A DNA stretch of 64,000 bases, taken from positions 310,001 through 374,000 of the forward strand of contig NZ_RAPQ01000010.1 of the NCBI RefSeq assembly GCF_003610555.1. The letters are read 5' to 3'. The stretch comes from Marinifilum flexuosum (lineage in GTDB: Bacteria; Bacteroidota; Bacteroidia; Bacteroidales; Marinifilaceae). This document shows, one piece after another, positions 18,845 through 63,110 of the stretch. Each line of letters begins with the position of its first letter. Within the stretch, counting starts at the first letter, position 1. The position numbers were made by a program, and so were the translations under genes. Under the pieces are notes generated by a model that saw only the letters and a program-made list of their open reading frames with translations, had not been told where the DNA came from and made no database searches.

Positions 18845-19390
18845 ATGAAGAATAGAAACACCAAAGATCCCGGCGAAAACCATATTTACCCTTTTATTAT
18901 TTCCAACATTTTAGTGTTTGTAGGGATATTTTTTAGCTTAAATTCAGCTCCCGAAGTAGCTATTATTTTATACTCCATGTCGCTTAATCTGTTTATTCAC
19001 TGGCTTGGATTTTACAGTTCTACAAAAAAGAAAATTGCTCGTTTTTCTGAGTACTACAACAATTTAATGATTGGCATTTTCTGTGTTTCATCGGTAATTC
19101 CTGTTTTTATATTAATGGTATCACTGATATTGGAATTCCCCGTTTCTAATTGGACCTTTTTATTGGTTTCCCTACTATTGAGTTTTATTTTCAAGTTTGG
19201 CTTATACAAATACTTTGCATGGGAATCGGTAACCGAAAAACTGATGAATCAGTACAGAATGAGTATTGAACAAGAACGAGACGATAATTTTAAGATTGTA
19301 AAAGCACATTTTGATACCAATCCCGAAAAGTTTAAGGAATACATTGAGAAATCGCAGCTGTTCGATGATAAAATTGAAAAACTGTTCTGA
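18845..19390 (+). CDS. Hypothetical four-helix membrane protein
   Basis: 181 aa, family not recognised. Four hydrophobic segments at about 17-33, 38-56, 74-95 and 103-123, then a charged cytoplasmic C-terminal region (EKLMNQYRMSIEQERDDNFK, FDTNPEKFKEYIEKSQLF) with helical character. The ATG at 18845 follows a terminator by a few bases, so its promoter must overlap that hairpin. The stop is followed after 20 bases by the 21-bp repeat array. It converges on the DUF4294 gene. Confidence 0.75.
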   Translation: MKNRNTKDPGENHIYPFIISNILVFVGIFFSLNSAPEVAIILYSMSLNLFIHWLGFYSSTKKKIARFSEYYNNLMIGIFCVSSVIPVFILMVSLILEFPVSNWTFLLVSLLLSFIFKFGLYKYFAWESVTEKLMNQYRMSIEQERDDNFKIVKAHFDTNPEKFKEYIEKSQLFDDKIEKLF

Positions 19391-19410
19391 TTATTTCATA
19401 AAGTAAGCAT

Positions 19411-19544
19411 TGCGCACACATAAAAAGAATCTCCGAATCAATAAACAACCTGTCCGCAACAAAAATCAGAAGCTTCGAACACCATAATTCCAATTGCGCA
19501 CACTAAATTGATGGTTCTGCACGCGGATTGAGTATCTCCGAACT
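19411..19544. repeat. 21-bp degenerate tandem array, left block
   Basis: Units start at 19411, 19432, 19453, 19474, 19495, 19516 and 19537, exactly 21 bases apart. Cores on the + strand are TGCGCACAC, TCCGAATCA, TCCGCAACA, TTCGAACAC, TGCGCACAC, TCTGCACGC and TCCGAACTG; the 12 bases between cores are AT-rich and poorly conserved. The core reads like the - strand core (CTTCCGCAC) of the right block, so the two blocks look inverted relative to each other. The region is intergenic. Confidence 0.75.
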
Positions 19545-19800
19545 GTGCGGAATAAATTTCCCGGCGTGCGGAAGAATCACCTTACCGTTCGGAACAGATT
19601 TCTTCCCGTGCGGAAGGGTCACCTTGCCGTGCTGAACAAATAAAATTGCGTGCGGAAGCACTTCCCATATGTGCGGAAAGGGTACCTGAGCGTGCAAAAC
19701 AAATTTTTTAGTGTGCGGAAGCATTACCTTAACGTGCAGAGAAGATATTTATGTGTGCGGAAGCATTTCTTTTGTGCTCGGAAACTTCCTTTTGGTGCGA
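19545..19800. repeat. 21-bp degenerate tandem array, right block
   Basis: Cores begin at 19545, 19566, 19587, 19608, 19629, 19650, 19671, 19692, 19713, 19734 and 19755, each 21 bases apart, then drift near 19774-19795. GTGCGGAAG is exact at 19566, 19608, 19650, 19713 and 19755. The copies between are variants (GTTCGGAAC, GTGCTGAAC, GTGCAAAAC, GTGCAGAGA), suggesting a 42-bp higher-order unit. The array runs into the last codons of the DUF4294 gene. Period 21 equals seven codons or two helical turns. Confidence 0.85.
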
Positions 19801-20429
19801 AGTGGATAAGGCGGTGGCAACTCCCTGTTTTTAATCCGATCTAAAATTTCTTCTACCATCCAATCTTTTCCTAAAGGATCGTACTCTGCCTTTAACGAAG
19901 TACCAAACATTGCGGCAATTGATTGCCAAAACACGGCTGTTACCGATCCTTTTAACTCCTTCAAATGGTAATAACTACTATGCCCTGATTCTCGGTCAAT
20001 CAGTTTCATTAATAGTTTCCCCTGCGAGATCTTCAGTTTCATTAATGGCTTTTTGTACTCTTTCATCAAGCCTTTGTATTCTTTCCTGATTAATTTCCTG
20101 CGTTCCTTTTTACTATGAACATTTTTCAATTGTTCATTCAAACGAATAATAGTATTGTTTGCTTCCTCGGCATATGGATACACGATTCTTACATTACGAA
20201 CCGTACGCCAATATTTTCGGGTGCTGCGGTAATGTTTTCTTTTTCGTTTCTTGTATCTCTTAACATTGATTTCATCCAGATTTACATGCAAATTGGTATC
20301 TGCAAAAACCACAGTATCTAATAATAGATTGTATCGATCTTCAGCACGAGTTTTTGCATTTGATTCTGTACACAGCAAAATCAAGATACTTCCCATTATT
20401 AATATGCCTAATCCAACTAACCGCATCAC
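19749..20429 (-). CDS. DUF4294 domain-containing exported protein
   Basis: Bacteroidota-specific protein of unknown function, 226 aa. The N-terminus has a signal peptide (about 1-25, LVGLGILIMGSILILLC then SNA). The domain covers about 40-205: RKYWRTVRNVRIVYPYAEEA, LIDRESGHSSYYHLKELKG and VTAVFWQSIAAMFGTSLKAE are its recognisable blocks. The last 15-17 residues (from KRKFPSTKE to MLPHT) are encoded by the invading 21-bp array. Beyond the TAA the same frame continues in heptads for another 75 codons to 19503. Divergent from the gamma-glutamyltransferase gene. Confidence 0.85.
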   Translation of the reverse strand: MMRLVGLGILIMGSILILLCTESNAKTRAEDRYNLLLDTVVFADTNLHVNLDEINVKRYKKRKRKHYRSTRKYWRTVRNVRIVYPYAEEANNTIIRLNEQLKNVHSKKERRKLIRKEYKGLMKEYKKPLMKLKISQGKLLMKLIDRESGHSSYYHLKELKGSVTAVFWQSIAAMFGTSLKAEYDPLGKDWMVEEILDRIKNRELPPPYPLRTKRKFPSTKEMLPHT

Positions 20430-31288: not shown

Positions 31289-31399
<111 letters not shown>

Positions 31400-31489
31400 A
31401 ATCGTTTGTTGATCTCTCAACTAAATATCATAGACACATTGAAAAGTAAAATAAAAGAACCAAATCACGTAAGATTCAGCGATTGACCT

Positions 31490-34365
<2,876 letters not shown>

Positions 34366-34484
34366 TGTGCCAATAAAAGTATAAACTTTCATCACGAAAT
34401 CAATCGTTGTTTCTTTACTTTTTGGTTACTTCTACTTTACTACTTTCAACATGTCAAAGAACTTTAATACACCATCGTATTATG

Positions 34485-34559
<75 letters not shown>

Positions 34560-34571
34560 TAAGCATTATTG

Positions 34572-34645
34572 TAGTCCTGCGCAGATTTGAACTGCGGACC
34601 CCTACATTATCAGTGTAGTGCTCTAACCAACTGAGCTACAGGACT
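34572..34645 (-). tRNA. tRNA-Ile (GAT)
   Basis: 74 bases. The acceptor stem AGTCCTG pairs with CAGGACT; the anticodon stem CTACA/TGTAG encloses loop CTGATAA, anticodon GAT. CCA is not encoded. It lies first after 16S, the usual Ile-Ala order. Confidence 0.97.
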
Positions 34646-34790
34646 AAATTAATAATCCATATGCTAGCGGTCTTAAACACCCTAACGCTATGGGTTATGG
34701 TATATTAAATGAAAACAAGTAAAAAGTTAGGCAAAACAGTAATGAAACCTGTCTGTTACCATAAACCTATTGTCGATATTCTAAATCTCT

Positions 34791-36316
<1,526 letters not shown>

Positions 36317-42416: not shown

Positions 42417-42786
42417 TTTATATATTGAAAACTGAACATTCACTCTTAAAACCTGAAGTTTTAATATCAAAAACTCAATAATTAATATTAAAAGTAGACC
42501 TTTTAACATTGAAGAGTGATGTTTCAATATTAAAACATGGCGTTTCAACGTTGAAGATTGAAGTCGCAACATTAAAAGTTAATGCGTCAACTTTTCTTAC
42601 TCTCTTTTTAGCCCTACTGGACATCATTTTTCATTAAAAGTTGAAGTTTCAACGTTAAAACTTTATGTAACCACATTGACACCACAATTGTCAACGTTGA
42701 AAGCTGAGCTATTAATGTTAAAACCTGAACTTTTAACATGGAAAGTTCAGGTTTTAATATGTATTTATGAGATCACAAGTTTGAAA
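42417..42786. repeat. 21-bp palindromic tandem array
   Basis: Units start at 42417, 42438, 42459, 42480, 42501, 42522, 42543, 42564 and 42585 (spacing 21). After a weaker stretch and a one-base slip they resume at 42647, 42668, 42689, 42710, 42731, 42752 and 42773 (again 21). The core is close to the 14-bp palindrome TTTCAACGTTGAAA; examples are TTTCAACGTTGAAG at 42543, TTTCAACGTTAAAA at 42647 and TGTCAACGTTGAAA at 42689. Seven less conserved bases separate cores. A perfect palindrome GATCTTTAAAGATC at 42791-42804 follows. Lies between convergent genes. Confidence 0.85.
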
Positions 42787-62970: not shown

Positions 62971-63110
62971 CGCTTCCGCAAAAACTTGCGCACCGTTGTG
63001 CAAAAAATTGTGCAAACTTCCGCAACTTTTTGCGAAAGGTACATTTTAATAAGAGGGAAATTTGCTTTGGGTTTTGCAAACAGTTTGCAGATACAATTTC
63101 GTGCTTTAGC
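62971..63110. repeat. Phased GC-motif tract (10-12 bp spacing)
   Basis: TTCCGCA (62974), TTGCGCA (62986), TTGTGCAAA (62996 and 63008), TTCCGCA (63018), TTTGCGAAA (63029), TTTGCTTT (63061), TTTGCAAA (63073) and TTTGCAGA (63084). The GC steps fall at 62978, 62988, 63000, 63012, 63022, 63032, 63064, 63076 and 63087, mostly 10-12 bases apart, about 21-23 per pair. The core TTCCGCA is the one in the array at 19545-19800. Intergenic, between convergent genes. Confidence 0.6.

Follow-up and report, generated by a model that had tools for sequence, protein, structure and literature searches.

At positions 19411-19800 of the window (the whole 64,000-nt stretch of Marinifilum flexuosum DNA that was analysed), a tandem array is located between two convergent genes. 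The features of this locus, in order of position, are the following:

18845..19390, + strand: left flanking gene, 181 aa, uncharacterised, no Pfam hit; its 3' end and the first core are about 20 bp apart
19410..19543, + strand: left arm, seven 21-bp units with TTCCGNAC-type cores on +, from TTGCGCAC at 19410 to CTCCGAAC at 19536
19536..19552, no strand: inversion centre, CTCCGAAC-T-GTGCGGAA
19545..19796, + strand: right arm, twelve 21-bp units with GTGCGGAA as core (CTTCCGCAC on -), unit types weakly alternating (42 bp)
19749..20429, - strand: right flanking gene, DUF4294; last codons and stop within the right arm

The periodicity of the array was determined by autocorrelation. The match fraction at lags 21, 42 and 63 was 0.504, 0.543 and 0.495, respectively, compared to 0.25 ± 0.024 in 500 dinucleotide shuffles (z = 10.8, 12.3 and 10.4), and the best value of any shuffle at lag 21, 42 or 63 was 0.341. 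The left and right blocks, when taken separately, each peaked at 21/42/63. Since the units alternate, 42 bp fits better than 21 bp as the period.

Left cores (TTGCGCAC / CTCCGAAC type) start at 19410, 19431, 19452, 19473, 19494, 19515 and 19536. The first right core (GTGCGGAA and variants) starts at 19545, and the others follow every 21 bp up to 19776, with no indel within the window copy. A sequence-only reading of the locus had described a 21-bp period, about 18 units at constant steps and two blocks inverted about roughly 19541; all three were confirmed, with 7 left and 12 right units in exact spacing around the centre. The inversion centre is identical in M. breve and slightly altered in D714, M. 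fragile and D737.

The same reading had the array filling a convergent gap. It does lie between convergent genes, but its right arm runs into the 3' end of the DUF4294 gene, and as the stop of that gene (19749) falls inside the array, the array is more than a filler of the gap. An exact search of the genome for the core pair revealed three further strong arrays of the same family (family 1), at C1:1934k, C3:433k and C8:74.7k, each having both arms and a centre. These sister arrays lie between tandem genes, so that the convergence at the window array is mostly coincidental.

Two other arrays were located in the window:

42418..42760, no strand: window array 2, of another family, with dyads TTYAAYRTTRAA every 21 bp and a non-repeat centre at 42592-42633
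62973..63025, no strand: small array of 22-bp period, its cores similar to TTCCGCAA / TTGCGCAC

Window array 2 sits between a bidirectional terminator, common to relatives, and the stop of a convergent gene. The genes adjoining the array at 19411-19800 and window array 2 encode an uncharacterised protein, a DUF4294 protein, a 108-aa protein without Pfam hit and an AIRS protein; neither a rep/par gene nor any other cognate gene was found beside the two arrays. The window also contains a complete rRNA operon (31289-36316), whose 16S-23S spacer holds two tRNA genes.

A scan for periods of 12-60 bp was applied to the window and 54 stretches over contigs 1-3, amounting to 1.14 Mb, or about 22% of the 5.17-Mb genome. 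It returned 30 periodic regions, 25 of which were intergenic arrays with periods of 21, 23, 40, 41, 42 or 44 bp, while the remaining five had periods of 12-18 bp. Such a concentration in 20-23 or 40-44 bp differs from a uniform spread over 12-60 (binomial p = 2e-14). No arrays were detected in randomised sequence or in 50 kb of E. coli, the latter being a small control. By extrapolation from this sample, about 110 arrays are expected per genome, and the window array, which had been taken for a singular feature, is one among many.

The motifs vary by array and include TTCCGNAC, TTYAAYRTTRAA, TTCCCCANNTTGGGGAA, TTCGCGCG, TTAGCCA, TCCACAC and others, with the same family found at several loci of the genome. 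Inverted organisation was modest across arrays, 18 of 27 exceeding the mirror control. A coding repeat of 7- or 14-aa units was ruled out by the arrays of 23, 40, 41 and 44 bp; 23, 41 and 44 are not divisible by three, and arrays with such periods are therefore non-coding.

At L017:16000-16287, the units of a 41-bp array resemble the terminator hairpin of the preceding gene, as though the terminator had been amplified. At L023:14568-14640, a tandem heptamer ATCAGTT (TAACTGA on the opposite strand) was observed; a repeat of this heptamer is reported to be abundant in intergenic regions of Beggiatoaceae (PMC4679880).

Among gaps of at least 250 bp, arrays occupied 6 of 26 convergent, 18 of 130 tandem and 5 of 60 divergent ones, counts that are approximate because genes were called with a custom simple hexamer model. 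A function tied to convergent genes was rejected, convergent gaps being just mildly enriched. For 13 of 18 arrays in tandem gaps, the closer of the two gene ends was a 3' end (one in-ORF case left out). No linked gene common to the arrays was found.

The main rival of a protein-binding reading is that of a neutral or selfish minisatellite, spread in a MITE-like manner between loci and expanded by slippage or unequal crossing over, without host function. We consider it a substantial possibility, though not a probable one. Uniform neutral divergence was simulated for the four family-1 right arms, L011 and L010. In the four right arms, column identity was 0.84-0.90 in the 8-bp core vs 0.36-0.39 elsewhere in the unit, a contrast that none of the neutral simulations attained (1000 each on star and on coalescent trees). 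The arms of L011 displayed a similar contrast, reached by 0-4 of 1000 simulations, and uniform neutral divergence was thus rejected for both. For L010, the contrast was within neutrality, with 46 of 1000 star and 263 of 1000 coalescent simulations reaching it.

Between species, the family-1 right arms changed by 7.1% in cores, 20.4% in spacers and 14.5% in flanks. The slower change of cores than of flanks also speaks against a purely neutral repeat. The p-value for cores vs spacers (8e-15) is optimistic, as the alignments are partly anchored on the cores and sites were pooled over several comparisons. For left-arm cores, the contrast between species was not significant (6.4% vs 9.0%, p = 0.34).

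The window locus was compared with those of relatives; in M. breve JC075, the flanking protein is 99% identical to that of the window genome. Units numbered 7+12 in M. breve, 7+5 in D714, at least 2+11 in M. fragile (contig end) and approximately 2+3 in D737, and no array was present at this locus in M. caeruleilacunae, N1E240, Labilibaculum or Ancylomarina. M. fragile and D714 also have arrays at the orthologues of the other three family-1 loci. Length differences within arrays were mostly whole units (21, 42, 105, 126, 147 and about 189 bp); apart from these, there were a few single-base indels, short gaps close to the array ends and, where M. fragile L008 was aligned, some ragged gaps. The earlier claim that spacing is kept while sequence diverges was borne out by this check for indels in sister species, where gaps were mostly multiples of 21 bp.

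The M. breve copy matches that of the window in its left arm and flanks, and seven of its right-arm units diverge strongly in their spacers. The middle of this right arm is 82% identical to an M. fragile array at another locus vs 76% to the window copy at the same locus. Being nearer to an array elsewhere while its flanks match those of the window, the M. breve right arm suggests exchange between arrays of one family, which from the alignments would be the simplest account.

The place of window array 2 is empty in four Marinifilum relatives, in which the convergent genes lie about 52 bp apart around the common terminator. A copy elsewhere in M. fragile has the same non-repeat centre, GGACATCATTTTTCATTAAAA, as window array 2. 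At L081, D714 and M. fragile carry the 41-bp array, D737 has a collapsed form of it, and M. caeruleilacunae lacks it. In D737 (L088, L153/L155), a collapsed array was found at both common loci examined, as if arrays were being lost there.

Array density per 100 kb was 2 in M. fragile, 3 in D714 and 2.2 in the window genome. No arrays were found in an 81-kb sample of M. caeruleilacunae, nor in 100 kb each of G111 (same taxonomic family), G069, G011, G148 and G150, an empty 100-kb sample being no proof of absence. Four arrays were found in 200 kb of G034, which belongs to a different family of the same order; in L112 and L115, two palindromes alternate per 41-42 bp. At L115:7186-7530, the units are 42 bp long and palindromes TTCGTCCCGGGACGAA and TGTGCAAGCTTGCACA alternate. 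The arrays are patchily distributed among the sampled genomes. In part of the genus Marinifilum, intergenic arrays of this kind form a large class, to which the window array belongs.

Presence and absence between species, patchy distribution, the dispersal of same-family copies through one genome and the GGACATCATTTTTCATTAAAA centre common to window array 2 and M. fragile are all features expected of a neutral or selfish minisatellite. Matches to Y1 transposases were also found in six of six Marinifilum genomes, with 7 in the window genome and 2 in M. caeruleilacunae. A RAYT/REPIN system was considered and set aside, these transposases being few relative to the number of array families. Against this rival, inspection by eye of array ends and of two empty sites (window array 2 and L081) showed no obvious terminal inverted repeat or target duplication, and slippage alone leaves the period clusters at 20-23 and 40-44 unexplained.

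A precedent for this rival exists in another member of the Bacteroidales, Porphyromonas gingivalis, whose intergenic regions carry tandem repeats with units of 22, 23 and 41 nt, described as minisatellites in MITE-like elements (PMC4596501). By analogy, its BrickBuilt (23-nt) and 464/PgRS (41-nt) repeats are the closest precedent, with a near-identical set of periods: 22, 23 and 41 nt compared to 21, 23, 40-42 and 44 (22 x 2) in Marinifilum. Both are dispersed intergenic tandem repeats with varying unit number and with conserved and variable positions in each unit (PMC4596501). In contrast, by comparison with the published description, no MITE leader or tail and no terminal inverted repeat was seen in Marinifilum arrays, their units are far more diverged at constant spacing, many motif families occur per genome, and family 1 has two inverted arms. 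The literature search for phased repeats in Bacteroidetes yielded nothing except P. gingivalis, and neither the period as a helical ruler nor many motif families in one genome appeared in the literature searched, mostly outside subscription journals.

Covariation across the dyads was analyzed in two palindromic families, some units of which are common to neighbouring species and thus not fully independent. In the TTYAAYRTTRAA family (family 2), pair 3-10 was T-A in 18 units, C-A in 15, C-G in 12 and T-G in 21; Watson-Crick combinations amounted to 30 of 72, with 32.9 expected. No pair with a significant covariation excess was found in the TTCCCC...GGGGAA family. As facing positions vary independently, protein-type dyads, with half-sites read by a dimer, are favoured over hairpins. 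The family-1 unit is not palindromic, so for this family the protein-site reading is carried over from other arrays of the same genome. A fixed-register hairpin within family-1 units was also considered and rejected, as column-pair analysis gave only scattered, weak signals.

An RNA-level or cruciform element, in which tandem hairpins end or stabilise transcripts, is in our judgement improbable. Folding energies were below those of shuffled sequence on both strands in all 12 arrays tested (z -0.8 to -10.8), which is not diagnostic, since a low folding energy is expected of any inverted repeat. Several arrays adjoin intrinsic-terminator-like hairpins, as judged by eye, and the units of L017 resemble the flanking one. 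Several arrays are situated past a terminator, and this location, together with the missing mirror-position covariation in the two palindromic families, argues against an RNA-level or cruciform element. Moreover, hairpins do not require a strict period, and neither window array matched an Rfam family.

The array had alternatively been proposed to be a phased structural element. The predicted curvature of the window array was inside the shuffled range (z 0.6), and as a common property intrinsic curvature was rejected, 3 of 14 arrays being above shuffles and 11 ordinary. A bent element was therefore not supported as a general feature of the arrays.

Several known systems resemble the arrays in part. 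BIME/REP clusters of enterobacteria are intergenic, often near gene 3' ends, and composed of palindromic or inverted units that have been proposed as protein platforms. Marinifilum arrays have the same placement and the same kinds of unit; unlike BIME/REP, with one sequence family per genome, they comprise many families, with another unit and spacing and a strict two-turn phase. In plasmid iteron and partition arrays (F sopC, R6K), one protein binds in phase to direct repeats of 20-22 bp, or to repeats of about 43 bp each with a dyad. The direct repeats of Marinifilum are of similar length, and its longer units likewise hold dyads, whereas its arrays are chromosomal, occur at many loci and, in the two window cases, have no rep/par gene beside them.

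LytTR regulators bind 9-bp direct repeats 12 bp apart, which corresponds to a 21-bp period (PMC6193735). A promoter-type regulatory array for LytTR-like regulators would fit this geometry, as family 1 has an 8-bp core and a 13-bp spacer compared to 9+12 (PMC6193735), and yet such an array is very unlikely. LytTR sites are pairs upstream of -35 elements, whereas Marinifilum arrays consist of 5 to about 20 units, lie mostly off promoters and nearer gene 3' ends, and include palindromic arrays of 41-44 bp that do not fit. Nor does gene number track the arrays, as M. caeruleilacunae, whose sample was free of arrays, has just as many LytTR genes.

Direct DNA-DNA pairing, in which arrays of one family would act as a zipper, with short homology every second turn aligning duplexes without recombination, was regarded as extremely unlikely. 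The unlinked family-1 loci do share interspersed homology in helical register. We know of no bacterial precedent, and a protein explains the contrast between core and spacer more simply. Outside bacteria, homology sensing at the duplex level, with a periodicity of 11-12 bp, has been reported for repeat-induced point mutation (RIP) in Neurospora (PMC4858203).

The explanation that we tentatively prefer, at somewhat short of an even chance, is that the arrays are rows of putative cooperative protein-binding sites which grow and shrink by in-register recombination. The sequence-only reading thus gains partial support, its binding platform being the interpretation that the evidence favours most, through core conservation in family 1, periods that cluster at about two or four helical turns and dyads that appear protein-like in two families. 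Each array would be a row of short recognition sites of one of two kinds, palindromic dyads or asymmetric 8-bp cores arranged as two inverted arms. With sites recurring at steps of two turns, or a single dyad per four turns, all of them would face the same side of the DNA.

Several different DNA-binding proteins, one per array family, would occupy the arrays, with neighbouring sites probably bound cooperatively. Lying between transcription units, the coated strips may help to organise the nucleoid or act as insulators. Core and phase would be maintained by selection while spacers drift, and in-register recombination would add, remove and exchange units, also between arrays of the same family. 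Against this binding reading, the dozens of different motifs would call either for as many proteins or for a single one of very loose specificity. A hybrid may also apply, in which a mobile repeat recruits a protein encoded by the host or by the element.

A wider form of the binding reading is a chromosome-wide architecture, with about a hundred phased strips per genome in sequence families, each with its own cooperative DNA-binding protein, under selection for core and phase and limited to certain lineages by the trans-acting factors. We regard this as rather unlikely. Bacterial minisatellites are usually viewed as neutral, or used as typing markers. The Marinifilum arrays, of differing sequence, have one physical ruler in common, two helical turns, and the most closely tested family keeps its core and loses all else, which makes dedicated protein strips on the chromosome a testable proposition. 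If true, it would also provide a frame for the unexplained 22-, 23- and 41-nt repeats of the periodontal pathogen P. gingivalis.
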